Source of the DNA: an uncultured Bacteroides sp.
Lineage (GTDB): Bacteria; Bacteroidota; Bacteroidia; Bacteroidales; Bacteroidaceae
Direction: 5' to 3'
NCBI GenBank assembly: GCA_944322285.1
Contig: CALUOR010000012.1
Coordinates: forward strand, 21,061-85,060
DNA: 64,000 bases
Shown: positions 964 through 11,968 of the stretch, piece after piece
Position numbering within the stretch: the stretch's first letter is position 1
Layout: each line of letters opens with the position of its first letter
The notes under the pieces: model-generated
Databases searched by the model: none
Told to the model about the DNA's origin: nothing
The model's input: the letters and a program-made list of their open reading frames with translations, nothing else
Made by a program: the position numbers and the translations under genes

Positions 964-988
964 TCCCTGCAAAAACTAAAGACAAATC

Positions 989-2041
989 ATGAAGAAACTC
1001 TATATACTCTTTTTGCTGCTGGCTTTCGCCTCCTGCATCCGTATAGACTACGCCCGCCGTCTGGCCGATGCGGACAGTCTGCTTTATGTCCGTCCGGACA
1101 GTGCCTTAACCCTTTTGCGCAGTATTCCGCCCGATCATCTTCCTTCGGAAGAAGAACGGATGCGTCATGCGTTGCTCACTGTAGAGGCGGAGTGCCGCAA
1201 CCGCGTTCCGCAGCGGGATGACTCGCTGCTACAGGTAGCCGTGGATTATTTCCACCGCACCGATAATGAACGTTGGGAAGCACGGGGTGAATATGCCCGT
1301 GGCTACGTTCTCTATAACTATCTGAAAGAAGGCGGCAAGGCGGTGGAGGCTTATCATCGGGCGGAAGAGTTGGCGCAAGCCGTAGAGGACAAGCGGCTGT
1401 TGGCACATATCTATAACGGAATGGCCTATATCTATCAGTGTGAAGAGCTCAATCAGCAAGCTGATTCTTTATATAATATGGTGGAACAGATGGCTATCCA
1501 ACTGAAAGATACGGTGCTGTGGTTGGAATCCGTAAAGCGACAAAGTATTTATCTGATTGGAAAAGGAAAGTCATACTATAAAGAAGCGGAACAGAAACTG
1601 TTGCGGAACTATGAAATAGCTTCTCGCTACGGTAATCCGATCTACCAATGTAGCAATGCGCTTAACCTAAGCCTGCTCTATAGCTATATGCGCAATGGGG
1701 AGCAAACTTTGCGTTTTGCCAGAAAGGCATTGGAATTACAGCAGGTGGATACTACTATGCTGTCTACAGCCATTTTGCTTACTGGAGAAGGCTTTTATAA
1801 ATTAGGTGTGTATGACTCAGCAGTTTTTTATTTGAGCAAAGTACTTGCATCACCCCAATTTAATATCCGCTCTTCTGCTTATATGCGTCTAAGTGACATT
1901 GCGGAAAAGCAAGGAGATACACAAAAGGCATTGGAATATGAGAAACTACGTATCCGAAATGAGAAATTGTATCAGCAACAATCACAAACAACTGATATTC
2001 AATTAGCAGAACAGGGGTGGAAATACGCACAAAAACAGTGA
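989..2041 (+). CDS. TPR-repeat lipoprotein, N-terminal half of a split membrane regulator
   Basis: A 350-residue protein with a lipoprotein signal (lipobox LAFASC, Cys16) followed by helical tetratricopeptide-type repeats over roughly residues 100-330. It ends at TGA (2039-2041). Only one codon later, in the same frame, an ATG opens a reading frame with a transmembrane helix, a basic juxtamembrane segment and a helix-turn-helix. Bacteroides encode many single-chain regulators laid out as lipoprotein signal, TPR, transmembrane helix, coiled coil and HTH, so this looks like the sensory half of such a protein cut by a nonsense codon, or a natural two-gene version. It lies upstream of the peptide-export genes and may control them; this is inferred from position. 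Confidence 0.75.
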   Translation: MKKLYILFLLLAFASCIRIDYARRLADADSLLYVRPDSALTLLRSIPPDHLPSEEERMRHALLTVEAECRNRVPQRDDSLLQVAVDYFHRTDNERWEARGEYARGYVLYNYLKEGGKAVEAYHRAEELAQAVEDKRLLAHIYNGMAYIYQCEELNQQADSLYNMVEQMAIQLKDTVLWLESVKRQSIYLIGKGKSYYKEAEQKLLRNYEIASRYGNPIYQCSNALNLSLLYSYMRNGEQTLRFARKALELQQVDTTMLSTAILLTGEGFYKLGVYDSAVFYLSKVLASPQFNIRSSAYMRLSDIAEKQGDTQKALEYEKLRIRNEKLYQQQSQTTDIQLAEQGWKYAQKQ

Positions 2042-2044
2042 AAC

Positions 2045-2656
2045 ATGAGACAGATAATTTATGTTTGCTTATGTGTTATTCTATGCTTGTCGGGGACACT
2101 TTGCATTATAACAATACACCGCCACAAAATCCGGAAACGCCGGCAGGTAATTATAAAGATTCTGATGCAGCAATGGATGCACGAACATGCCCGTTTGCTG
2201 CCTGCCCCCTCTTCTCCTGTCGCATGGCTTCAAGCGGAACCTGTTGCAACGGAGGTTGTAGAGGCAAAAGGAAGCCGTTCGTTCGATTTTGACGTGTTGC
2301 AAGTGCGGATACGGGAAACTGAAGTCTATCGCAAGCTGATGCGTATCTTGGACCATTACAAAAAATGCGCCGACTATGAAGAACATTTCACGATGGAAGA
2401 CCGCTATGCGTTCATCGATGTTATTGACGGTTATACCCACGGTTTTACTTCCTACCTGAAACAAACGTGTTCCGCATTGACCGAAGAGGATGTTTATTTC
2501 TGCTGCCTCCACCTGTTGGGACTGAAGGCAAGTCAGATTGCCGTTATCGTGGAGCAGGACCGCAGCAACATCTACAAACGGCAGAAAGCGTTGCTGAAAG
2601 ACAAGTTCAAAATCGCCACTAAAGACAAATTAGAAAATGTGTTGAAGAACATCTAA
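2045..2656 (+). CDS. Membrane-anchored helix-turn-helix protein, C-terminal half of the split regulator
   Basis: This 203-residue protein begins with a transmembrane helix (about residues 3-24), continues with a basic stretch (HKIRKRR) and a charged helical linker, and ends in a helix-turn-helix at about 155-190 (LGLKASQIAVIVEQDRSNIY) resembling LuxR or sigma-region-4 types. It is in the same frame as the preceding TPR gene, separated by a stop plus one codon, and no clear ribosome-binding site precedes its ATG. It therefore looks like the missing half of a membrane TPR regulator. A DNA-binding role is inferred from the HTH. Whether it is translated separately, by stop readthrough or at all cannot be told from sequence. 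Confidence 0.65.
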   Translation: MRQIIYVCLCVILCLSGTLCIITIHRHKIRKRRQVIIKILMQQWMHEHARLLPAPSSPVAWLQAEPVATEVVEAKGSRSFDFDVLQVRIRETEVYRKLMRILDHYKKCADYEEHFTMEDRYAFIDVIDGYTHGFTSYLKQTCSALTEEDVYFCCLHLLGLKASQIAVIVEQDRSNIYKRQKALLKDKFKIATKDKLENVLKNI

Positions 2657-2689
2657 TCGCGCCTTTTCCACAAAAATGCCACAAAAAAA

Positions 2690-2739
2690 GGAGTGGAAAA
2701 GGTGTGGACGCCCTAAAATTCCACACTTTTTCCACACTT
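2690..2739 (+). terminator. Inverted repeat between the regulator and the export locus
   Basis: The left arm gagtggaaaaggtgtgga (about 2691-2708) pairs with tccacactttttccacact (from 2720) around an 11-base loop. T-rich sequence follows. It may terminate the regulator transcript or serve as an operator for the genes starting at 2795. Confidence 0.5.
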
Positions 2740-2757
2740 TCTTTGCTTTCATCCGTC

Positions 2758-2765
2758 TAACTTTG
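2758..2765 (+). promoter_or_regulatory. Candidate -7 box ahead of the peptide-export locus
   Basis: TAACTTTG fits TAnnTTTG and lies 29 bases before the ATG at 2795, directly after the 2690-2739 inverted repeat. A well-spaced -33 box is not evident. Confidence 0.4.
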
Positions 2766-2794
2766 CCGCATCGAAACCCCAAAAGAATGACGTT

Positions 2795-3193
2795 ATGAAA
2801 GCATTAATGATTAGTTTGTTTGCAATGTGGGTAGGCTGTTCACCTATCTATGCGGTTGGCAATAATCTGTCACAAAACACAATGGTCGCTGCGGATGATG
2901 ATGAAGAAAGAGAGATACCATTAAACATAATGACTAGCGATGATATAAAAACTCTGTCAATCTTCCAACCCACCGCCTACGTTACCTTATATAATAAGAT
3001 ACTCAGCGTAGATCTCAGTGAGTTGCCCGAAGATGCCACTGTCACCATTACCCGCACGACTACCGGTGAAGAAGTGCATTCGCAAACCGGTATGGGAAGT
3101 ATGGAGATTGACTTGAGCGCTTGCGGCAAGGGACAATACCAGATTGATGTCGTGTCTGGTGGACTGTGGCTGCAAGGACATTTCTCACTCTAA
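2795..3193 (+). CDS. Small secreted DUF3244-like protein
   Basis: 132 residues with an N-terminal signal peptide (hydrophobic to about residue 20, SPIYA cleavage-like) and a compact beta-rich domain. The strand pattern at the end (TVTITRTTTGEEVHSQ, then GKGQYQIDVVSGG) resembles the small Ig-like or C-terminal sorting-like folds of DUF3244 proteins common in Bacteroides. The acidic segment DDDEERE follows the signal. It is the first gene of the export locus, 15 bases before the VKOR gene, and is probably cotranscribed with it. A role in the system, for instance a periplasmic partner or immunity factor, is speculation from position. The family assignment is by pattern only. Confidence 0.6.
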   Translation: MKALMISLFAMWVGCSPIYAVGNNLSQNTMVAADDDEEREIPLNIMTSDDIKTLSIFQPTAYVTLYNKILSVDLSELPEDATVTITRTTTGEEVHSQTGMGSMEIDLSACGKGQYQIDVVSGGLWLQGHFSL

Positions 3194-3208
3194 CCGATAA
3201 TACTCCGT

Positions 3209-4726
3209 ATGGCTATGACTGACACCGTTTCTTTACTCTATCGCTACCTGCGGTTGCTGTCCGTACAGATAGACCGGGGCACCGTCCACCGCTTGCTGGC
3301 TCATCCGTTGGGTGACAGCCTGCGGGGACTGAGTGATGCGTTAGACACATTAGGAGTAAAGAACGCCGCTTACCAACTGCCTGCGGAGTATCTCGACCAA
3401 GTGGAGGCACCGTTTATTGCGGTGACCTATGAGGAAGCTCATCCGTTCTGCTTGGTGGAGCAACGGACCAAGGAAGGATTTATCATCTTTGCGCAAGGTA
3501 AACGGATGAGTATCAATAGAGAAGCTTTCTTGCAACAATGGAATGGCGGGGTGTTGATAAGCGAAGTAACAGAAGCCACCCGGCAAGACCGATGGTATGC
3601 GGTGAAGAACGGTTGCGACCTATTCGTACGTCACAACCTATTGGTCGTATGTCTCTTCCTGCTCCTTTTGAGTCTGTGGCATACGGAAAGCGTTCTTTGG
3701 TTTTATGACATCACGCTGTGGATGGGCACATTCGCTTCCATCGCCATCCTCTATAAAGAATGGGTGGACGACCGCTTTCTGCACCGCTTCTTCCACATCG
3801 GGCAAGTAGTGAACTGCAATACGGTGTTACGCTCCAAGGGTTCCCGGTTCATGGGTGTAGGCTTGGGCGAACTCAGTCTGTTCTACTTCGCTACGCTGTT
3901 GTTGTTCTGCGGAAGTCGTCCGCAAGGGTTCTACGGACTGGCCGTCTGTTGCGGGATAGCGGCTTTGGCGTTTACCGTTTATTCGGTAGTCTATCAAGTG
4001 TTTGTCGTCCGCAAAGGGTGTATGCTCTGTATGGCGGTGAATGCATCCGTATGGCTGAACGGCCTGGTGTTGTATGGACTCTATTCACGGGAAGGGATGC
4101 AGCTGTCTTTCTCCCTCCCCGACTGGGTGGTATTGGCCCTTTCGGCAGGCATTGTGCTTGGCATCGGGCTGTCCGTCAAGCAGTGGATAAAGACCGAACA
4201 AGCCCACCGCCTGTTACAAGCCCGTTATGCAGAGCTGTTGCAGCCCGATGCATTCCAAGCACTTTTGGCGTTGCAACCCGCATTGGGCATCCTGCCGGAA
4301 AAGGGACTTTGTATGTGCAATGGCGTAGAGGGAACGAATGAGGTGCTGATTGTAACCAATCCCACGTGCAAGAATTGCGCCCGTCTTCATCCGCAACTGC
4401 GTGAACTGGCGGCCCAAGTCCCGGTCTCTTTGCTTCTGTTGACTTTCCCGCAGGACGGCATGGGACAACGGGTAGCGCAGACAGTGCTTGCCGCTTACCG
4501 CACGCAAGGATGGGACAAGGCGTTTGACCTGCTGAGCCAATGGTACGACACGGGCAAACTGCCTGTAGACACCGTACAACCGACAGAGGAAGATGTGGAA
4601 CGCTGGAAACAGCAACAGCTGTATGCCTACCGGCATCAACTGACTCGCACGCCTTCACTGATGGTAGACGGGCATTATGTGCCGGAGGTGTACAAAGTAC
4701 GAGATTTGAGGTATGTATTGACATAA
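3209..4726 (+). CDS. Membrane VKOR-thioredoxin fusion with a degenerate C39-like N-domain
   Basis: A 505-residue polytopic protein. Residues 1-130 resemble a peptidase-C39 fold but lack the catalytic Cys. Several membrane helices follow (about 143-320) with a vitamin K epoxide reductase core: Cys203 in VNCN and the redox pair CMLC (271-274). A thioredoxin/DsbA-like domain follows with NPTCKNC (CXXC at 387-390). VKOR domains pass electrons from thioredoxin-like partners to quinones and so drive disulfide formation. In this setting the likely clients are the two cysteines of the peptide encoded at 4823 and perhaps the TlpA-like protein at 5176. Similar fusions are found beside C39-exporter bacteriocin genes in Bacteroidales; the link to this peptide is inferred from synteny. 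Confidence 0.8.
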   Translation: MAMTDTVSLLYRYLRLLSVQIDRGTVHRLLAHPLGDSLRGLSDALDTLGVKNAAYQLPAEYLDQVEAPFIAVTYEEAHPFCLVEQRTKEGFIIFAQGKRMSINREAFLQQWNGGVLISEVTEATRQDRWYAVKNGCDLFVRHNLLVVCLFLLLLSLWHTESVLWFYDITLWMGTFASIAILYKEWVDDRFLHRFFHIGQVVNCNTVLRSKGSRFMGVGLGELSLFYFATLLLFCGSRPQGFYGLAVCCGIAALAFTVYSVVYQVFVVRKGCMLCMAVNASVWLNGLVLYGLYSREGMQLSFSLPDWVVLALSAGIVLGIGLSVKQWIKTEQAHRLLQARYAELLQPDAFQALLALQPALGILPEKGLCMCNGVEGTNEVLIVTNPTCKNCARLHPQLRELAAQVPVSLLLLTFPQDGMGQRVAQTVLAAYRTQGWDKAFDLLSQWYDTGKLPVDTVQPTEEDVERWKQQQLYAYRHQLTRTPSLMVDGHYVPEVYKVRDLRYVLT

Positions 4727-4749
4727 AAGATATTGTTTTGCGCAGAACG

Positions 4750-4779
4750 ATGGCTGTTACCAGACTACAGCCTTAAAAA
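4750..4779 (+). other. Short hairpin before the peptide gene
   Basis: ggctgt and acagcc form a 6-bp stem (about 4750-4771) followed by ttaaaaaa. It lies between the VKOR gene and the peptide gene and could weaken readthrough or separate transcripts. It is too short to call a terminator. Confidence 0.3.
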
Positions 4780-4822
4780 AGTCGGAAATAAATCAAATTT
4801 TAACTAATAATCGTTTTATATC

Positions 4823-5023
4823 ATGAAACTGAATGATTTTAAGGCATTTGAACTGGGTAAGGCTCAGATGAATGCAATTGCAGGTGGCGTGAAGGAATTT
4901 TACTGCACAGGTGATAACCATCAAAGAGCAACAATAATGGTTGACACTCTTGAACAAGCTCAAGCCGCGGCTGACGCTTCCTTTGTGGGTGGTGCAGTTT
5001 GTGAGGAAGTCATTAAAGGCTAA
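4823..5023 (+). CDS. Double-glycine-leader precursor peptide (bacteriocin-like)
   Basis: A 66-residue precursor. Residues 1-22 (MKLNDFKAFELGKAQMNAIA then GG) form a typical leader for C39 peptidases: hydrophobic residues at regular spacing, a GG cleavage site, and similarity to the GG-Bacteroidales precursor leaders. Cleavage would release a 44-residue core, net acidic, with exactly two cysteines at core positions 6 and 38 and an alanine-rich middle (EQAQAAADA). The neighbouring VKOR-thioredoxin and TlpA-like proteins suggest that the two cysteines form a disulfide. The exporter with the matching peptidase lies 1.3 kb downstream. I recognise the leader class but not the core. Activity could be antibacterial or signalling. 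Confidence 0.8.
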   Translation: MKLNDFKAFELGKAQMNAIAGGVKEFYCTGDNHQRATIMVDTLEQAQAAADASFVGGAVCEEVIKG

Positions 5024-5095
5024 ACCTCCCAATGTTTAGATAGCGAAAATTCCCTATATCTATACATTGTTAAGAAAGTAAAATTGTGAGAAAAA

Positions 5096-5149
5096 GAGGG
5101 CGTGAAAATGAATATGTAAAACCATATATGCGTATTGAAACACGCCCTC
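5096..5149 (+). terminator. Terminator-like hairpin after the peptide gene
   Basis: gagggcgtg (5096-5104) pairs with cacgccctc (5141-5149), preceded by aaaaa and followed by attttaattt, so the stem extends with A-T pairs. It would partly end the short peptide transcript before the TlpA-like gene and give higher peptide expression than export-gene expression, as in many bacteriocin operons. Confidence 0.6.
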
Positions 5150-5175
5150 ATTTTAATTTAAAGCGTATATGATCT

Positions 5176-6369
5176 ATGGATAAAGTGTTTGGTCTTCTAT
5201 TGATTTTTATTTTTTGTTCAATATCGTATTCCTATTCATCAAACTATAGTGTTGAAAAGAAAAATGTAAAAATTTCGGTGCTTTTAGACAAAGATATGAC
5301 AGACGTTGAACAAAAAGTTTATGTATGGTCTTTCATCTCTGGCAATGAACAACGAATATGGGATTCCGCTTATGTAGCCCCTTATACAGATGTTATAGAA
5401 TTGCAAGCATATGCGGCTTCTGATACCAATTTCAAACTTATTTTTGATAAAAAAGGGCCTAAAGGACTATCTATATATGCACTACCGAATGATCATATAA
5501 CCATTCGAGTGGAGAACAAAGACCGGAATACGATATATAAAAAAGCGGAAAAAGGAGATTTCCATAATTATTGCATTGAAAGCATTTTGTCAAAACGTCC
5601 TTATTGGGTTAAAAGGCACGAAGCGAATGAACTAAAAAAGGAAGACAGCTTGGCTTTTTATAATCGCCAATTGATTAAACTTTATAAAAAAGAGATTTAT
5701 CAAGCAGAATACCCTTATATTTCGATTTTTGCTCTTGATATGATAAGTATATATTTTAGAGACATCATCACATCGGACTCTATTCGGTTTTTTAAAGAAT
5801 ATTTAAAGAAAAAATATCCGTACCACCCACGGTTACAATCTAATTATACTCACGAAGCATCCTCTATAGGAATAAAACATGCCCAAAGAATCGCAGAAAT
5901 AGAGATGCAACGCAATATTAATGAAAGTATTTTAAGAAATACCCAAATTGGAAACAAATTGAGCTTGAAACTACGGGACATGAATGGAAAACTTACGTCC
6001 TTAGAAGACTTGCCTGACAATTCATATATCTATATAGATATTTGGGCTAGTTGGTGCAAACCTTGCAGGCGTCAGTTTTCTGCAATAAAAAAAATTATCT
6101 CAAAATATGCTGCTATGGTTACAGTGTATGCCATTTCCATTGACTTGAACCATACGTTATGGAAAGAAGCCATAAAAAAAGACGGAACAGAGCAGTTTAT
6201 ACATGTAATAGGTACTAATAACTTGAGGGAAATTCTGCCGGAAGTTCGTCTGTTAGGATTAGAAAGAATACCAAGGAACTTCTTATTGAATAAGCAAAAA
6301 GAAATTATTGCCATTGATTTGAATACTGATGAATTGGCTGAAACTTTAGATTGTTTAATACACCAATGA
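5176..6369 (+). CDS. TlpA-like thioredoxin-domain protein, secreted
   Basis: 397 residues with an N-terminal signal peptide (about 1-21), a beta-rich and helical region unlike known families to about residue 270, and a C-terminal thioredoxin fold with the active site WASWCKPC (about 292-299) and the cis-Pro loop IPRN. This is the Bacteroidetes TlpA/ResA-like layout, acting on thiols in the periplasm or at the outer membrane. Its stop overlaps the start of the C39 exporter (ATGA at 6366-6369), which implies translational coupling and a job in peptide maturation. Its base composition is clearly more AT-rich than the VKOR gene before it and the exporter after it, suggesting that peptide and partner were exchanged as a unit. 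Confidence 0.8.
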   Translation: MDKVFGLLLIFIFCSISYSYSSNYSVEKKNVKISVLLDKDMTDVEQKVYVWSFISGNEQRIWDSAYVAPYTDVIELQAYAASDTNFKLIFDKKGPKGLSIYALPNDHITIRVENKDRNTIYKKAEKGDFHNYCIESILSKRPYWVKRHEANELKKEDSLAFYNRQLIKLYKKEIYQAEYPYISIFALDMISIYFRDIITSDSIRFFKEYLKKKYPYHPRLQSNYTHEASSIGIKHAQRIAEIEMQRNINESILRNTQIGNKLSLKLRDMNGKLTSLEDLPDNSYIYIDIWASWCKPCRRQFSAIKKIISKYAAMVTVYAISIDLNHTLWKEAIKKDGTEQFIHVIGTNNLREILPEVRLLGLERIPRNFLLNKQKEIIAIDLNTDELAETLDCLIHQ

Positions 6370-8558
6370 ACCCCTTTCCCCACTACACCCAGCACGACCA
6401 AATGGACTGCGGCCCTACCTGCCTGCGGATGATAGCCGCGTGGTATGGCAAACGCTATTCGCTGGAAGGACTACGTGAAAAGAGCTTTCTGACCCGTGAG
6501 GGTGTGTCCATGTTAGGCATCAGCGAGGCGGCGGAACGCATCGGGCTGCGAAGCATGTGCGTACAAGTGGACTATAAGAAGTTATTGGAAGCTCCGTTGC
6601 CTTGCATTGTACACTGGAACCAGCAACACTTCGTGGTGGTGTATCGCATGGACAACAAGCATGTATGGGTGGCAGACCCGGGAGCGGAAAAGCTGAAATA
6701 TACCAAGGAAGAATTCTGTCGGTGCTGGCTCAGTGCCAGAAAGAATGGAGAAGACACGGGCATCGCCTTGCTGCTGGAACCTACACCAGAGTTCTATACG
6801 AAGGAGGATGACGGGGACGAAGGGGAGCGGAACCGGCGGGGGTTGGTGTTTATGTTCTCGTATCTGCGGCCCTACAAGCAACTCATCGGGCAACTGCTGT
6901 TGGGACTGTTGCTGGGCAGTCTTATCCAGCTGCTGCTGCCTTTCCTGACGCAAAGCGTGGTGGACTTCGGCATCAATAACCAGAACATGGGGTTTATCTG
7001 GTTGGTATTGGTGGCGCAACTGACACTGACCTTCAGCAGTTCGGCGGTGGAGTTTATCCGGGGCTGGATACTGCTGCACTTGGGCACACGGGTAAACATT
7101 TCCCTCATATCGGACTTCCTCGCCAAACTGATGCGCCTGCCCATGAGCTATTTCGACACAAAGATGACAGGCGACATCCTGCAACGCATCAACGACCATA
7201 CTCGCATACAGGACTTCTTGACGGGTAGTAGCTTGAGCGTAGTCTTCTCTGCGTTCAATATCGTGGTATTCGGGCTTGTATTGTTGCTCTACAGTCCGGT
7301 GGTGTTCGGCATCTTCATGGTGGGCAGCGCGTTGTACGTAGGCTACGTGTGGCTGTTCATGAAGAAGCGGGCGGAACTGGACCACAAGCGTTTCGCCCAG
7401 CAGAGCGCGAACCAGAGCAGCGTGATGCAACTGGTGACGGGTATGCAGGAAATAAAGCTCAGTGCCTGCGAGCGGCAAAAACGGTGGGAATGGGAACGCA
7501 TTCAGGCACGGCTGTTCAAGGTAAACATCCGGAGCCTAGCACTGAGGCAGTATCAGGACTCGGGAGCGGTGCTCATCAATCAGACGAAGAATGTGCTCAT
7601 CACAGGACTGGTGGCGAGCTTCGTGCTGCAGGGAGACATGACCTTGGGCATGATGATGTCCGTGCAATACATCATCGGGCAGCTGAACAGTCCGGTAAAC
7701 GAACTCATCACCTTTGCCCGCGACATGCAGGATGCCCGCCTGAGCATGAACCGCCTGAGCGAAGTGCGTGACAAACCGGATGAGGAGAATCCGGCCCGGC
7801 AGCCGTTGCAGGAAATTCCGCAAGGAGCGGGACTGCGGCTGGAGGACGTAAGCTTCAAGTACGATCCTTTGGCGGAGACACCGACTCTGGAGCATATTAA
7901 CCTGGACATTGAGGCGGGCAAGCAGACCGCCATCGTAGGCATGAGCGGCAGCGGAAAGACGACCTTGGTGAAGTTGCTGCTTGGTTTTTATCCGTCTGCG
8001 GCGGGACAAATCATGGTAGGAGGCAGCCCGCTGGAACTGTACAGTCCCCGACGATGGAGGCAACGGTGCGGAGTGGTGATGCAGGACGGCTTCATCTTCT
8101 CGGACAGCATAGCGGGCAACATTGCGCCGGGCGTGGAGCGGATAGACCGGGAACGGCTGAGACATGCGGCAAGGGTGGCATGCATAGAGGACTTCATCAA
8201 TGAACTGCCCTTACGCTACGACACAAAGATAGGCAGCGAAGGGCATGGACTGAGCCAGGGACAGAAACAGCGCATCCTGATAGCCCGTGCGGTGTACAAA
8301 GACCCGGCATTCATCTTCTTCGACGAAGCCACCAATGCCCTCGACGCCAATAACGAGCGGCGCATCATGGAGAACCTGGAAACTTTCTTCCGGGGACGAA
8401 CTTCGGTAGTAGTGGCTCACCGGCTGAGTACGGTGCGCCATGCGGACAAGATTGTAGTGATAGACCACGGACGCATTACAGAGGAGGGTACGCACGAGGA
8501 ACTGATAGCGCGGGAAGGACAATATTACAGGCTGGTGAAGAACCAATTGGAGGTGTAA
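6366..8558 (+). CDS. Peptidase-C39 ABC exporter (PCAT)
   Basis: A 730-residue peptidase-containing ABC transporter that cleaves double-glycine leaders and exports the core peptide. The C39 domain (1-135) has Cys15 in QMDCGPTC, His88 in QQHFVVV and Asp104 in VADPG. The membrane domain spans about 160-450. The nucleotide-binding domain shows Walker A GMSGSGKTT (about 522), signature LSQGQKQR (about 630), Walker B FIFFDEATNALD and switch AHRLS. I start at 6366 rather than 6351 because MNPFPHYTQHDQMDCG is the usual N-terminus and its ATG overlaps the preceding stop. It is followed without a gap by the HlyD-like adaptor. The natural substrate is most simply the peptide at 4823. Confidence 0.93.
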   Translation: MNPFPHYTQHDQMDCGPTCLRMIAAWYGKRYSLEGLREKSFLTREGVSMLGISEAAERIGLRSMCVQVDYKKLLEAPLPCIVHWNQQHFVVVYRMDNKHVWVADPGAEKLKYTKEEFCRCWLSARKNGEDTGIALLLEPTPEFYTKEDDGDEGERNRRGLVFMFSYLRPYKQLIGQLLLGLLLGSLIQLLLPFLTQSVVDFGINNQNMGFIWLVLVAQLTLTFSSSAVEFIRGWILLHLGTRVNISLISDFLAKLMRLPMSYFDTKMTGDILQRINDHTRIQDFLTGSSLSVVFSAFNIVVFGLVLLLYSPVVFGIFMVGSALYVGYVWLFMKKRAELDHKRFAQQSANQSSVMQLVTGMQEIKLSACERQKRWEWERIQARLFKVNIRSLALRQYQDSGAVLINQTKNVLITGLVASFVLQGDMTLGMMMSVQYIIGQLNSPVNELITFARDMQDARLSMNRLSEVRDKPDEENPARQPLQEIPQGAGLRLEDVSFKYDPLAETPTLEHINLDIEAGKQTAIVGMSGSGKTTLVKLLLGFYPSAAGQIMVGGSPLELYSPRRWRQRCGVVMQDGFIFSDSIAGNIAPGVERIDRERLRHAARVACIEDFINELPLRYDTKIGSEGHGLSQGQKQRILIARAVYKDPAFIFFDEATNALDANNERRIMENLETFFRGRTSVVVAHRLSTVRHADKIVVIDHGRITEEGTHEELIAREGQYYRLVKNQLEV

Positions 8559-9857
8559 ATGAACCAAGAAAAAGACAATGACATAGAATTACGCAGTGAG
8601 GAAGTGCAGGAGATACTGACCCGGCCGCCTCATGCCTTGGTGCGGTGGGGCATCACCATGTTCTTCAGTGTGCTGGCTGTAGTGTTCATCGGCGGATGTT
8701 TCTTTCAATATCCCGATGTGGTGGATGCCACAGTGACCGTTACCACCGAACGTCCTCCGGTATGGATGGTGGCACGAGGCAGCGGCAAAATAAAAGAAGT
8801 ATATCGGGCAGACTGTGACTCGGTACATGCGGGAGACTTGATAGCCGTACTGGAAAACCCCGCCAACACTATCGATGTGCGGAAACTGAAAGAACTATTG
8901 CAAGCATTCTACCTGACAGACAGTTGCGTACAAACGGTTCATTTTCCTGAAAAGCCTTCCTTGGGAAGCGTACAAACTGCCTATGCCGCTTTCCTAAGAA
9001 GCTTGACTGATTACCGCAACTACTTGGAACTGAATCTGTACGACCGGCAGATTAAAGCGACTGAGGAAGAACTGGAGGAATACGGGCATTACATCACTCA
9101 CCTGGAACGGCAGATTGTACTGGACGGCAAACTGATGGAAATAGCGGAAACCGTACACCAACGGGAAAAAAGCTTGTATGAAGAAGGGTTGACGGCCAAA
9201 GCGGAATATGAGGAAGCCCAACAGGCACTACTGTCCCAACAACAAAGCACGGAACAACTGATGACCTCGCTTTCCAATGCTCGCATCCAACAGGCTCAGT
9301 TGAAACAGACAATCCTGCAAACCCACATGGAACAGGAGCGGGAAGCCAATACGCTGCGTACCGCCCTGCAAACCGCCTGTAATGAGCTGAAAACAAGCAT
9401 CGGTGATTGGGAGCTGGCTTATCTTTTTGTCAGCCCGGCCGATGGCATCCTGTCCTACAACGATGTGTGGCAAAAGAACCAGAACGTGAACAGCGGTGAC
9501 AAGGTATTCTCTGTGGTAGCCAAAGATATGGGAGCCATTATCGGCAAGATAAAGCTGCCTACGGGAGGCTCGGGAAAAGTGAAACCCGGACAACGGGTAA
9601 ACATCAGCGTAACGGGTTACCCATATATGGAGTTCGGCTTCCTGACCGGTACGGTGCAATCCATCTCATTGTTGGCTGATGAAGAAAACATGTATACTGT
9701 CACCGTCAGTTTGCCGCAAGACTTGCGCACTTCCTACGGCAAGTCGTTGCACTTCAACGGCGAATTGTCCGGTACAGCTCAGGTGCTGACCGATGAACGA
9801 AGTGTAACCGCACGGTTGCTGAGTCCGTTGCGCTACGTGTGGGAAAAGTATCTTTGA
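8559..9857 (+). CDS. HlyD-family periplasmic adaptor of the peptide exporter
   Basis: 432 residues. A single inner-membrane helix lies at about 28-48, followed by a beta-barrel/lipoyl half (GSGKIKEVYRADCDSVHAGD), a long coiled coil (about 110-280, rich in Glu, Gln and Leu) and the second lipoyl half plus beta-barrel (SPADGILSYNDVWQKNQNVN, then PGQRVNISVTGYP). This is the membrane fusion protein that links a C39 ABC exporter to an outer-membrane channel, giving type I secretion across both membranes. It starts directly after the exporter stop. No TolC-like gene is in the locus, so a housekeeping outer-membrane factor is probably used. Confidence 0.9.
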   Translation: MNQEKDNDIELRSEEVQEILTRPPHALVRWGITMFFSVLAVVFIGGCFFQYPDVVDATVTVTTERPPVWMVARGSGKIKEVYRADCDSVHAGDLIAVLENPANTIDVRKLKELLQAFYLTDSCVQTVHFPEKPSLGSVQTAYAAFLRSLTDYRNYLELNLYDRQIKATEEELEEYGHYITHLERQIVLDGKLMEIAETVHQREKSLYEEGLTAKAEYEEAQQALLSQQQSTEQLMTSLSNARIQQAQLKQTILQTHMEQEREANTLRTALQTACNELKTSIGDWELAYLFVSPADGILSYNDVWQKNQNVNSGDKVFSVVAKDMGAIIGKIKLPTGGSGKVKPGQRVNISVTGYPYMEFGFLTGTVQSISLLADEENMYTVTVSLPQDLRTSYGKSLHFNGELSGTAQVLTDERSVTARLLSPLRYVWEKYL

Positions 9858-9968: not shown

Positions 9969-10889
9969 ATGAAACCGATACGAAACTTTACCCAGTTGAC
10001 TGAGCACTTGAAAAGTCTGAACCGCCGGAAACGCATCGCGGTGGTTTGCGCCAACGACCCCAATACGGAGTACGCCATCGCCCGCGCCTTGGAAGAAGGC
10101 ATTGCCGAGTTTTTGATGTTGGGCAATCCTGCCATCCTGCATAAGTATCCTACCTTGCGGCGTTATCCGGAATATGTGAAAATTGTCCCCATCGACAATC
10201 CCGATGAAGCGGCGCGTGAGGCCGTGCGCATGGCGCGCGAGGGCGAAGCGGATATTCTGATGAAAGGCATCATCAACACAGACAACCTGCTTCATGCCGT
10301 GCTGGACAAGGAGTGTGGGCTTTTGCCTCGCGGCAAGGTACTGACCCATCTGGCCGTGATGCAGATTCCTACGTATCACAAGTTGCTGTTCTTCTCCGAT
10401 GCGGCGGTCATCCCCCGGCCCACTTTGCAACAACGCATCGAGATGATACAATACGCCATCCGCACGTGTCGCCATTTTGGCATCGGCCGTCCCCGCATCG
10501 CGTTGATACACTGCACGGAGAAGGTCAGCGCCAAATTCCCCCATTCGTTGGATTATGTGAACATCGTAGAGCTGGCCGAAGCGGGCGAGTTTGGCGATGT
10601 GATTATCGACGGTCCGCTGGACGTGAAGACCGCTTGCGAGAAGACGAGCGGAGAAATCAAAGGCATTGTTTCTCCCATCGACGGGGAAGCCGATGTGCTC
10701 ATCTTTCCCAATATCGAGTCCGGCAATGCCTTCTATAAGGCCATGACCGTCTTTGCCTATGCCGAGATGGCGGGGCTGTTGCAAGGCCCTGTCTGCCCCG
10801 TGGTGCTTCCTTCGCGTAGCGATAGCGGGCTGTCTAAATATTATAGTATGGCTATGGCTTGTCTCACTTCTAATGATTTGGACGAATGA
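9969..10889 (+). CDS. ptb: Phosphate butyryltransferase
   Basis: 306 residues of the phosphate acetyl/butyryltransferase family, converting acyl-CoA plus phosphate to acyl-phosphate plus CoA. The C-terminal half carries the family pattern with SPIDGEADVLIFPNIESGN and a conserved PSRSDS near the end. I start at the ATG at 9969 (MKPIRNFTQLTEHL); the frame upstream to 9876 lacks homologous character. It overlaps the butyrate kinase gene by ATGA, so the two are translationally coupled. In Bacteroides the pair more likely acts on butyryl-, isobutyryl- or isovaleryl-CoA from amino-acid breakdown than in classical butyrate fermentation; this is inference. Confidence 0.88.
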   Translation: MKPIRNFTQLTEHLKSLNRRKRIAVVCANDPNTEYAIARALEEGIAEFLMLGNPAILHKYPTLRRYPEYVKIVPIDNPDEAAREAVRMAREGEADILMKGIINTDNLLHAVLDKECGLLPRGKVLTHLAVMQIPTYHKLLFFSDAAVIPRPTLQQRIEMIQYAIRTCRHFGIGRPRIALIHCTEKVSAKFPHSLDYVNIVELAEAGEFGDVIIDGPLDVKTACEKTSGEIKGIVSPIDGEADVLIFPNIESGNAFYKAMTVFAYAEMAGLLQGPVCPVVLPSRSDSGLSKYYSMAMACLTSNDLDE

Positions 10890-11968
10890 AAATATTGGTT
10901 ATCAATCCCGGCTCTACTTCCACCAAGATGGCGGTTTACGAAGACGAGCGTGCCGTGTTTGTCAAGACCTTGCGCCATCCCGTGGACGACCTGATGCGTT
11001 ATCCCCGCATCATCGACCAGTTTGAGTTTCGTAAGAACTTGGTGCTCGACGAGTTGCAACGCGAAGGCATCCCTTTCCGCTTCGACGCCATCATCGGCCG
11101 GGGCGGCTTGCTGAAGCCCATTCCCGGCGGAGTGTACGAGGTGAACGATGCCATGCTGGACGACATTATGCACGCCATGCGTACCCATGCCTGCAACTTG
11201 GGGTGCCTGATTGCTTCCGAACTGGCTCATGCCTTGCCCGGTTGCCGCGCTTTCATAGCCGACCCCGGCGTGGTGGACGAACTGGACGAAGTGGCGCGCG
11301 TCACCGGTTCACCGCTTATGCCGCGTATCGTCATCTGGCATGCACTGAACCAACGCGCCATTGCCCGGCGTTATGCCGCCGAACAGACCGCCTTGCATCC
11401 CGCTCAGCCCGTGCGTTATGAAGACTTGGACTTGATTGTATGCCATTTGGGCGGAGGAATTTCCGTGGGGACTCACCACAAAGGCCGTTGCGTCGACGTG
11501 AACAATGCGTTGGATGGTGAAGGACCTTTCTCGCCCGAGCGGGCCGGGACATTGCCTGCGGGCGATTTGATAGACTTGTGCTTCTCCGGTAAGTTGTCGC
11601 AGGCGGAATTGAAGAAACGCATCTCCGGACGTGCCGGATTGGCCGCCCATCTGGGCACGACCGATGTGCGCGAGGTGGAGCGGCGGATTGCGGAAGGAGA
11701 CGAACACGCCCGCTTAGTGCTGGATGCCATGATTTACCAGATAGCCAAAAGCATCGGGGCGGCTTCGGTCGTGCTCTACGGTCGGGTAGATGCCATTCTG
11801 CTTACAGGCGGCATCGCCCATTCCGATTATATTGTTTCCCGTTTGCGCAAGCGCGTTTCCTTCCTGGCGCCCGTGCATGTCTATCCCGGTGAGGACGAAC
11901 TGGAGGCTTTGGCGCTGAACGCGTTAGGAGCTTTGCGGGGAGAACTGGAAATCTTGATTTATCGCTGA
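10886..11968 (+). CDS. buk: Butyrate kinase
   Basis: 360 residues of the acetokinase family, making butyrate (or a branched-chain acid) plus ATP from the acyl-phosphate. Visible motifs are the N-terminal phosphate loop INPGSTSTK, GRGGLLKPIPGGVYEVND, the second phosphate motif HLGGGISVGTH and GRVDAILLTGGIAHS in the adenosine motif. Its start overlaps the ptb stop (ATGA at 10886-10889). Length and motif order match the family. The two genes give a short route for substrate-level phosphorylation and may link to the indolepyruvate-type oxidoreductase at 40425-42617. Confidence 0.93.
   Translation: MKILVINPGSTSTKMAVYEDERAVFVKTLRHPVDDLMRYPRIIDQFEFRKNLVLDELQREGIPFRFDAIIGRGGLLKPIPGGVYEVNDAMLDDIMHAMRTHACNLGCLIASELAHALPGCRAFIADPGVVDELDEVARVTGSPLMPRIVIWHALNQRAIARRYAAEQTALHPAQPVRYEDLDLIVCHLGGGISVGTHHKGRCVDVNNALDGEGPFSPERAGTLPAGDLIDLCFSGKLSQAELKKRISGRAGLAAHLGTTDVREVERRIAEGDEHARLVLDAMIYQIAKSIGAASVVLYGRVDAILLTGGIAHSDYIVSRLRKRVSFLAPVHVYPGEDELEALALNALGALRGELEILIYR

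Follow-up and report, generated by a model that had tools for sequence, protein, structure and literature searches.

Organization of the Locus

The window, a stretch of 64,000 nucleotides from the 90% complete draft genome of an uncultured gut Bacteroides sp., contains the following features:

989..2041, + strand: TPR protein, first part, ending at an in-frame TGA (TPR_12, 7.4e-7, just below cut-off)
2045..2656, + strand: second part of the TPR gene, same frame (BT3442_fam, 5.8e-6, below cut-off)
2795..3193, + strand: DUF3244 protein, predicted secreted (Pfam PF11589, 1.9e-10; PDB 3sd2, 3.5e-8)
3209..4726, + strand: fusion of an apparently dead C39-like domain, VKOR and a thioredoxin-like part, 505 aa (Pfam, profile comparison)
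4716..4797, + strand: conserved element 5' of the peptide gene (model R1, 65.9 bits)
4752..4785, + strand: predicted H-type pseudoknot (stem 1, 4752-4757/4767-4772; stem 2, 4763-4766/4780-4783)
4823..5023, + strand: GG-leader peptide, 66 aa, with a leader of 22 and a core of 44 residues, Cys28 and Cys60 (ORF; homologues at loci L091, L092 and L093)
5176..6369, + strand: TlpA-like thioredoxin of 397 aa with the motif WCKPC, predicted to be secreted, paired with the peptide in the cassette; GC of the gene 32.9% (Thioredoxin_8, 5.3e-10)
6366..8558, + strand: C39 peptidase-ABC exporter, 730 aa (Peptidase_C39, 2e-35; ABC_membrane; ABC_tran)
8559..9857, + strand: HlyD-type adaptor, 432 aa (HlyD_3, 1.4e-11)

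The six genes from DUF3244 to HlyD were recovered as open reading frames on one strand at the positions given in a preliminary description, and the motifs recorded there were all borne out, from the exporter triad and the CXXC pairs to the GG leader and the overlap at ATGA: the exporter ATG stands at 6366 and the TlpA TGA ends at 6369, while the HlyD gene opens with an ATG at 8559, directly after the exporter stop codon (8556-8558). Pfam searches likewise recovered the proposed C39, VKOR, HlyD and TlpA thioredoxin domains, with the exception of the thioredoxin part of the VKOR protein, which fell below the cut-off (Thioredoxin_4, E 0.0026) and whose best relatives, all weak, are DsbC proteins (NCBIfam E 0.0003, far below cut-off; PDB E 0.016). 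The exporter combines an ABC transporter with a C39 domain bearing a Cys/His/Asp triad, as is characteristic of PCATs, and Cys15, His88 and Asp104 are kept in all 37 exporters of at least 700 aa (window included). In its exporter and adaptor families (C39 ABC and HlyD), intact triad and GG leader the locus resembles PCAT type I secretion as set out in excerpts of PMC8277102; it differs in adding a linked VKOR fusion and TlpA, and no outer-membrane channel was recognised within the locus.

Upstream lies a TPR gene whose division by the in-frame TGA was absent from the preliminary description, and which is undivided in L002 (556 aa) and L003 (580 aa). Its product may be read as a membrane regulator with membrane and HTH-like parts, and the second part gave no domain match for either.

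The same order of TPR protein, DUF3244 protein, VKOR fusion, peptide with TlpA (one or two), C39 ABC and HlyD recurs in relatives. Among 68 distinct VKOR fusions of at least 460 aa (window included), a strict GG-leader ORF lies within 5 kb on the same strand in 52, versus 2/68 in an antisense control, a C39 ABC lies within 12 kb in 44, and one or the other is nearby in 53. Neither is near the remaining 15, some of which lie by contig ends, and at least seven fusions (L095-L098, L100, L101 and L106) are accompanied only by the TPR and DUF3244 genes.

A Predicted Oxidase Fused to a Peptidase-Like Domain

Assignment of the fusion to the VKOR family follows from a PF07884 match of 33.9 bits against a cut-off of 27.5 (E 4e-8). 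Bacterial VKOR-thioredoxin fusions consist of a VKOR core with a CXXC motif and a thioredoxin domain, and the window protein shares this composition; unlike them, its type has an additional N-terminal C39-like domain, is accessory and occurs mostly near GG peptides, and the window copy is one loop cysteine short. Both CXXC motifs, that of the VKOR core and that of the thioredoxin part, are present in 68/68 fusions. A loop cysteine at position 195 is kept in 67 of the 68, the sole exception being the window copy, which has Phe195 and retains Cys203, whereas two loop cysteines are typical of VKOR. This substitution, on which the preliminary description is silent, speaks against full VKOR activity in the window copy, such that oxidation in this genome may be weak or proceed by a different path. 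The draft genome yielded one VKOR match and no DsbB match, the DsbB control being positive in 6/14. Within the genus, VKOR was found in 38 of 158 genomes and is thus an accessory gene.

The N-terminal domain, which the preliminary description did not include, spans residues 33-118 (Pfam Peptidase_C39, 2.8e-8) and aligns with the C39 domain of the exporter over 83 columns that begin past the catalytic cysteine (hhalign E 5.4e-13). Consistent with this starting point, the Pfam match begins only at profile position 42, the window protein has no cysteine ahead of residue 81, and across the 68 fusions no column in that stretch holds one in more than 30%. Judged by its sequence, the domain is a predicted dead peptidase, related to the leader-cutting domain of the exporter. 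A precedent is the C39-like domain (CLD) of HlyB, which, according to excerpts of PMC8277102, has lost catalysis and tethers cargo; the window domain likewise is without the catalytic cysteine, but it is joined to a VKOR oxidase, whereas the CLD is joined to a transporter, and cargo binding by the window domain is putative. A structure model of the fusion (three sequences) reached a pLDDT of 45 and was unusable.

The Leader Peptide and a Probable Exchangeable Cassette

Homologues of the 66-aa peptide occupy the same position at L091, L092 and L093 (51, 49 and 48% identity), and loci of this type hold 65 unique strict GG-leader ORFs on the sense strand versus 3 on the antisense strand. By both the positional homologues and the strand excess, the peptide is more than a chance ORF. 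Even numbers of core cysteines are found in 59 of the 65 unique peptides, odd numbers in five and none in one, a pattern that supports predicted disulfides in these cores. The peptide model (mean pLDDT 69.9) has a strand-strand-helix-strand core; a fold search with it against the PDB gave no match at E 0.001, and the peptide profile drew from the PDB a weak match to carnobacteriocin B2 alone (E 0.67).

Comparison of the window with its nearest relative, L087, revealed unequal conservation. The ABC exporters are 95% identical (626 residues, to the contig end) and the VKOR fusions 79%, while the TlpA proteins are 27 and 22% and the peptides 28 and 36% identical. At the DNA level, BLASTN returned only the blocks 988-4873 and 6365-8245, such that similarity ends within the peptide leader and restarts at the exporter start. 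GC content is 33% in the TlpA gene versus 53-56% in the VKOR and ABC genes. AT-rich TlpA genes are also seen in many relatives, so low GC by itself is no proof of import.

The closest exporters (L087, L088, L089 and L126; 89-95%) pair with different GG-leader peptides having 2, 4 or 6 core cysteines. Over 16 loci with window-like exporters, where the mean core distance is 0.78, peptide distance follows TlpA (r 0.73) and barely the exporter (r 0.20); over all 33 loci it also follows the exporter (r 0.56), phylogeny and linkage being ignored in all three values. Among 40 listed TlpA genes, 29 have a GG peptide within 700 nt upstream and 11 do not. At loci with a nearly identical exporter, the peptide core and TlpA vary as one block. 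Given that among the closest relatives the exporters stay 89-95% identical and the peptide diverges strongly together with its thiol-protein partner, the genes probably form a constant secretion line into which different cargo can be fitted. The preliminary description had counted invariable pairing of the exporter with a different substrate elsewhere against its own proposal, and on this point the outcome is divided: the peptides do differ, yet all have GG leaders and even cysteines.

Coevolution of VKOR with the peptide core was considered and is not claimed, as it is seen over all loci and lost within one VKOR type (12 loci), where r is 0.26 for VKOR and peptide and 0.08 for VKOR and core (p 0.22). 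Most of the VKOR-peptide correlation stems from the division of the fusions into two VKOR types.

A Conserved Element Upstream of the Peptide Gene

The peptide genes of such loci are preceded by a conserved element, of which the preliminary description made no mention and which contains a covarying hairpin. Model R1, built from sequences that include the window, matches this genome once. The hairpin is likely part of a pseudoknot, as modelled with a home-made stacking score applied to 20 hand-chosen upstream stretches out of 66 peptide genes, a set that left out L092, L099 11196, the type-B loci and all other loci. For thirteen of the 20 stretches the rank among 40 shuffles is 0-2, with the structure 29-40 nt away from the start codon; of the other seven, one has rank 2 but lies at 45 nt, and six have rank 3 or a poorer one. 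Stem 1 is backed by both this score and a hairpin pair count, and stem 2 by the score. The pair count used a structure derived from the same sequences, and two of its five measures were not unusual (reached by 31 and 484 of 500 shuffles). Simple folding of three sequences of the element gave no significant result (z -1.56, -0.36 and 0.15), and Rfam returned nothing at 4500-5300 up to E 1. If the element is an RNA switch, it would constitute a second novelty of the locus.

A Candidate Line for Export and Disulfide Formation

The most likely interpretation of these data is a line in which a leader guides the export and disulfide bonding of a variable secreted peptide. That the locus is a dedicated line, exporting the GG peptide and closing its one predicted disulfide, is given a probability of roughly 0.6. 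The earlier interpretation holds in part: its portrayal of an export locus complete in itself, thiol proteins included, is supported by the gene order, the even cysteines, and the presence of one VKOR and no recognised DsbB in the genome. By analogy with the respective families, the C39 domain of the exporter would cut after Gly22, the 44-residue core would pass the ABC protein, HlyD and an unlinked outer-membrane channel, and, once across the inner membrane, its Cys28 and Cys60 would be oxidised by the VKOR-thioredoxin protein. The dead C39-like domain may bind this GG leader as well, much as the HlyB domain tethers its substrate, and would thereby aim the VKOR oxidase at its cargo. The TlpA encoded here could serve as a cargo-specific thiol partner in proof-reading or reduction. 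That TlpA-type WCxPC proteins are often reducing counts against a disulfide-forming line. A more tentative proposal, to which we give somewhat less than even odds, is that of a leader-guided oxidase: the dead leader-reading domain of the VKOR protein would let one GG leader address both exporter and oxidase, while every cargo would bring along its TlpA and 5' pseudoknot as a plug-in unit.

In this genome the peptide line may be weakened, given that the upstream regulator is cut by a stop and the VKOR is without its loop cysteine. A stronger version, in which the locus is in decay and no mature peptide is formed, appeals to the same two lesions, the TPR gene being intact in L002 and L003 and the cysteine lost in the window copy alone; we regard it as unlikely. 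Values of dN/dS versus L087 (VKOR 0.19, ABC 0.03, TPR parts 0.14 and 0.17) indicate constraint until recently, the frames of the peptide, TlpA, exporter and HlyD are open, and errors in a draft sequence could explain both the TPR stop and the VKOR change.

Alternative Readings of the Product

The preliminary description likened the product to the bacteroidetocins, proposed class IIf bacteriocins (PMC6671954 and PMC8546649, in excerpt), and an antibacterial peptide of this kind is a rival reading that we hold to be rather improbable. As far as the available portions of PMC6671954 describe them, bacteroidetocins share with the window a GG leader, a core of similar length (42-53 residues, versus 44 in the window), two or more cysteines, a C39 ABC, a local thiol oxidoreductase and a Bacteroidetes host, and the variability of the cargo suits peptides of competition. 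Membership of the group is nevertheless not supported. Bacteroidetocin leaders comprise 15-16 residues, versus 22 here, and the first two members carry net charges of +6 and +2, versus a calculated -4.2 for the window core and negative charges in 20/20 checked cores with 2 or 4 cysteines (16 loci). Their described gene set consists of genes for a 5-TM protein, the peptide, a thiol oxidoreductase and an ABC transporter, with no HlyD named in those portions; the window, compared with it by description, has the C39 ABC and thiol proteins (a C39-like-VKOR-thioredoxin fusion and TlpA), no separate 5-TM gene, and HlyD and DUF3244 in addition. No immunity gene was recognised at the locus. Membership was rejected on leader length and charge, relative to the published description rather than to sequences. 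Less probable still is a signalling role for the peptide, with the upstream TPR protein as its sensor, provided that the latter is a membrane regulator. The TPR gene stands first at many loci, and peptide distance follows TPR distance (r 0.61, or 0.68 given ABC; 11 loci, window excluded, phylogeny and linkage ignored), but over 11 loci TPR distance tracks DUF3244 (0.88) and ABC (0.73) above the peptide, the gene also occurs with DUF3244 and VKOR where no peptide was recognised (L095-L098), and in this genome it is cut by a stop.

Two further readings were rejected. It is very improbable that the peptide is a TIGR04149-type RiPP modified by a radical SAM enzyme, with incidental thiol genes: the leaders resemble those of that family and 18/20 aligned peptides match (E up to 0.5, best 1.6e-5), but the window peptide scores 16.8 bits versus a cut-off of 25 over residues 2-34, mostly leader, and unlike TIGR04149 peptides the cores are mostly even-cysteine and the locus is without a recognised radical SAM partner (no match among nine locus proteins scanned). 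A TIGR04148 search of this genome gave three sub-cut-off proteins, all on other contigs. Action of VKOR and TlpA on the DUF3244 protein instead of the peptide is suggested by the position of the DUF3244 gene directly upstream of VKOR even where no peptide was recognised; this can be given next to no credence, as DUF3244 cysteines are not conserved across 29 relatives and are missing altogether in some.

With regard to the preferred reading of an export and disulfide line, general disulfide-formation machinery is said to be lacking in Bacteroides (excerpts of PMC6671954, citing Dutton 2008). A literature search conducted mostly outside subscription journals found no paper uniting VKOR, C39 and Bacteroides peptides, and a word search of PMC10352776, on RiPP mining in Bacteroidales, found VKOR, thioredoxin and disulfide absent from the text. 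Through a peptide line that includes a VKOR of its own, which a dead peptidase domain apparently directs to its target, a Bacteroides route to disulfide-bonded secreted peptides would become testable, and the plug-in layout of the line may serve as a search rule for many undescribed cysteine peptides in gut bacteria. The predicted monoisotopic mass of the window core is 4671.20 reduced and 4669.19 oxidised.

The locus and its predicted disulfide oxidase

The individual parts of the locus are ordinary, while their combination is unusual: a disulfide oxidase carries a dead leader-reading domain, and upstream of a nearly constant exporter the peptide-TlpA blocks differ. A literature search, with most subscription journals outside its reach, found no description of this combination. 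ORF calls and profile searches placed all six genes of the peptide maturation and export locus proposed in the preliminary description where they had been reported, with matches to the families named. The locus comprises:

989-2656, (+) strand, TPR gene
2795-3193, (+) strand, DUF3244 gene
3209-4726, (+) strand, VKOR fusion (505 aa: C39-like, VKOR and thioredoxin-like (Trx) domains)
4716-4797, conserved element upstream of the peptide gene (5' element)
4823-5023, (+) strand, peptide gene
5176-6369, (+) strand, TlpA gene
6366-8558, (+) strand, exporter gene (C39 ABC)
8559-9857, (+) strand, HlyD gene

The finer claims also held: the peptide leader consists of 22 residues ending in GG, the ATGA overlap joins the TlpA stop to the exporter start, HlyD begins immediately after the exporter, and the exporter has the triad Cys15/His88/Asp104 (numbered from the ATG at 6366). 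This triad is kept in all 37 exporters of at least 700 aa, window included. An in-frame TGA at 2039-2041 interrupts the TPR gene, whose product is read as a membrane regulator; L002 and L003, two of the stretches used for comparison, have it as a single ORF, and both window parts are under constraint. Downstream of the locus, 9969-11968 encodes, by reading of the sequence, a putative phosphotransbutyrylase and butyrate kinase.

Overlooked previously was a match of Pfam Peptidase_C39 to residues 33-118 of the VKOR fusion (E 2.8e-8). When a profile of 68 VKOR-fusion N-termini was aligned by hhalign with that of 37 exporter C39 domains, similarity extended over 83 columns (E 5.4e-13), beginning after the catalytic cysteine of the exporter. 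In the window fusion the first 80 residues are free of cysteine, and across the 68 fusions Cys does not exceed 30% in any column of that region; 2 of 68 have His in the histidine column (residue 78), and profile alignment places Ala at the aspartate position of the window protein. Because the catalytic positions are not kept, the N-terminal domain is, as judged from sequence, related to C39 peptidases but devoid of their triad. The HlyB C39-like domain, described as tethering its cargo uncut (PMC8277102), is a comparable case.

A census of 68 distinct VKOR fusions of at least 460 aa, window included, found the VKOR CXXC (271/274) and Trx CXXC (387/390) in every protein. Loop Cys203 occurs in 67 of 68, the remaining residue being unread, and position 195 is Cys in 67 of 68 and Phe in the window alone. 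Since loop cysteines of known VKORs carry electrons between the partner and the CXXC, the window copy may be impaired. Compared with L087, a related locus, its dN/dS of 0.19 indicates constraint. This draft genome (90% complete, 99 contigs) contains one VKOR match, the locus copy, and a search of it for DsbB gave no match.

Related loci and probable exchange of peptide-TlpA blocks

VKOR relatives were detected in 28 of the 399 family genomes (E <=1e-5) and in 37 of the 158 genus genomes (E <=1e-10), with VKOR Pfam family matches in 38 of the latter 158. Among 68 retrieved stretches, the recurrent order around window-type loci is TPR gene, DUF3244, VKOR fusion, peptide plus TlpA (once or twice), C39 ABC and HlyD. 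Of the 68 fusions, 52 lie within 5 kb of a same-strand strict GG-leader ORF (antisense control, 2/68), 44 lie within 12 kb of a C39 ABC and 30 within 5 kb of a TlpA; 29 of 40 TlpA genes have a GG peptide no more than 700 nt upstream. Neither peptide nor ABC lies near 15 of 68 fusions, a few of them close to contig ends, and at least one locus scored as lacking a peptide (L037) has one overlooked by the strict pattern. At least seven loci, several closely related (L095, L096, L097, L098, L100, L101, L106), combine the fusion with a TPR gene and DUF3244, with no recognised peptide or exporter nearby (downstream sequence was read for six such loci); these count against a strict VKOR-peptide bond.

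The portion that looks exchangeable is visible in comparison with L087. Identity is 95% for the ABC (626 residues, to the contig end), 79% for VKOR and 67% for DUF3244, versus 27 and 22% for its two TlpAs and 28 and 36% for its peptides; BLASTN similarity spans 988-4873, ending in peptide codon 17, and resumes at 6365. Likewise, exporters of L088, L089 and L126 are 94, 89 and 95% identical to that of the window, their TlpAs 27, 28 and 23%. A closer match to the window TlpA (42-44%) is one TlpA in each of the loci L091-L094, where exporters are 80% identical. L126 also keeps HlyD (85%) and DUF3244 (64%), with a VKOR of another type (24%) and three different peptides. GC content is 32.9% in TlpA, 53.3% in VKOR and 55.5% in the ABC, AT-rich TlpA genes being common among relatives too. 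As a separate observation, a second VKOR type (about 532 aa) adjoins the same exporter type in L052, L102, L105 and L126, where peptides bear WCCDSC-like C-terminal motifs and mostly six cysteines.

Across 33 loci, peptide distance correlated alike with ABC (r 0.56) and VKOR (r 0.61). In the 16 of these with TlpA and an exporter at least 65% like that of the window, r was 0.73 with TlpA, 0.59 with VKOR and a weak 0.20 with ABC (p 0.03; 0.03 given VKOR). For 12 loci sharing one VKOR type (type-B loci excluded, near-copy L092 dropped), values were 0.49 for TlpA (p 0.002), 0.26 for VKOR (p 0.035) and 0.27 for ABC (p 0.03); for the core, 0.37 with TlpA (p 0.014) and 0.08 with VKOR (p 0.22). In 11 loci with all genes, a set that does not include the window, TPR distance tracks DUF3244 (0.88) and ABC (0.73) more than peptide (0.61). 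Peptide-TlpA pairing is the robust outcome of these sequence-based correlations, all uncorrected for phylogeny or linkage.

The peptide product

Strict GG-leader ORFs, picked blind to cysteine content, numbered 65 unique on the sense strand versus 3 antisense. Of the 65 cores, 59 have an even, non-zero cysteine count, 5 an odd count and 1 none (binomial p 5e-13, calculated for the 64 cores that contain cysteines, relatedness uncorrected); among the six exceptions, three (L048, L118, L119) resemble chance ORFs, yet were kept in the count. The window core has 44 residues, with Cys28 and Cys60 at core positions 6 and 38, and at pH 7 its predicted charge is -4.2; negative charge is shared by all 20 two- or four-Cys cores checked across 16 loci. 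By contrast, the first two bacteroidetocins are cationic (+6 and +2), according to PMC6671954. An AlphaFold model from four sequences gave a strand-strand-helix-strand core (mean pLDDT 69.9), for which a PDB fold search returned no match. Given the charge of the cores and a model without PDB match, the product is labelled an acidic peptide, predicted to be secreted and likely to hold one disulfide. Away from the locus, at 67746-72002 of contig C5 of this genome (L133, L128, L137), a C39 domain lies close to a radical-SAM match below the cut-off and to a weak TIGR04149 match.

A conserved 5' element

The 4716-4797 element is conserved upstream of other peptides in the window's group, and an Rfam search with it gave no match. 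In 11 sequences, 98.2% of hairpin cells are paired, with both-side changes at 2/5 pairs. The covariation score was reached by 1 of 500 shuffles and all slid versions scored lower, the structure being derived from the same 11 sequences; of the five measures taken, two are not unusual against shuffles. A downstream strand is predicted to pair with the hairpin loop, giving an H-type pseudoknot with an A-rich linker; this fold is predicted for 13 of the 20 upstream stretches chosen by hand, at 29-40 nt from the start. For the role of the element, the simplest guess is control of translation or attenuation.

Run against the window plus 32 loci (608,546 bases), a covariance model gave 16 matches at E <=1, comprising the 11 building sequences and five others. 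Of these five, three (E 8e-6, 8e-6, 0.002) precede TlpA or exporter, with no GG peptide there in the three frames read; the other two, in L099 and L108, are weak (E 0.15, 0.53) and lie upstream of peptides. This genome yielded one match at E <=1 (150 of 1732 candidates scored). In L103, similar elements (1767-1848 and 10221-10298) stand directly upstream of TlpA genes that have no recognised peptide. In L088, HlyD is followed by a second GG peptide gene (7502-7690; two Cys in the core), which has a separate copy of the element and is succeeded by a 306-aa ORF in place of TlpA.
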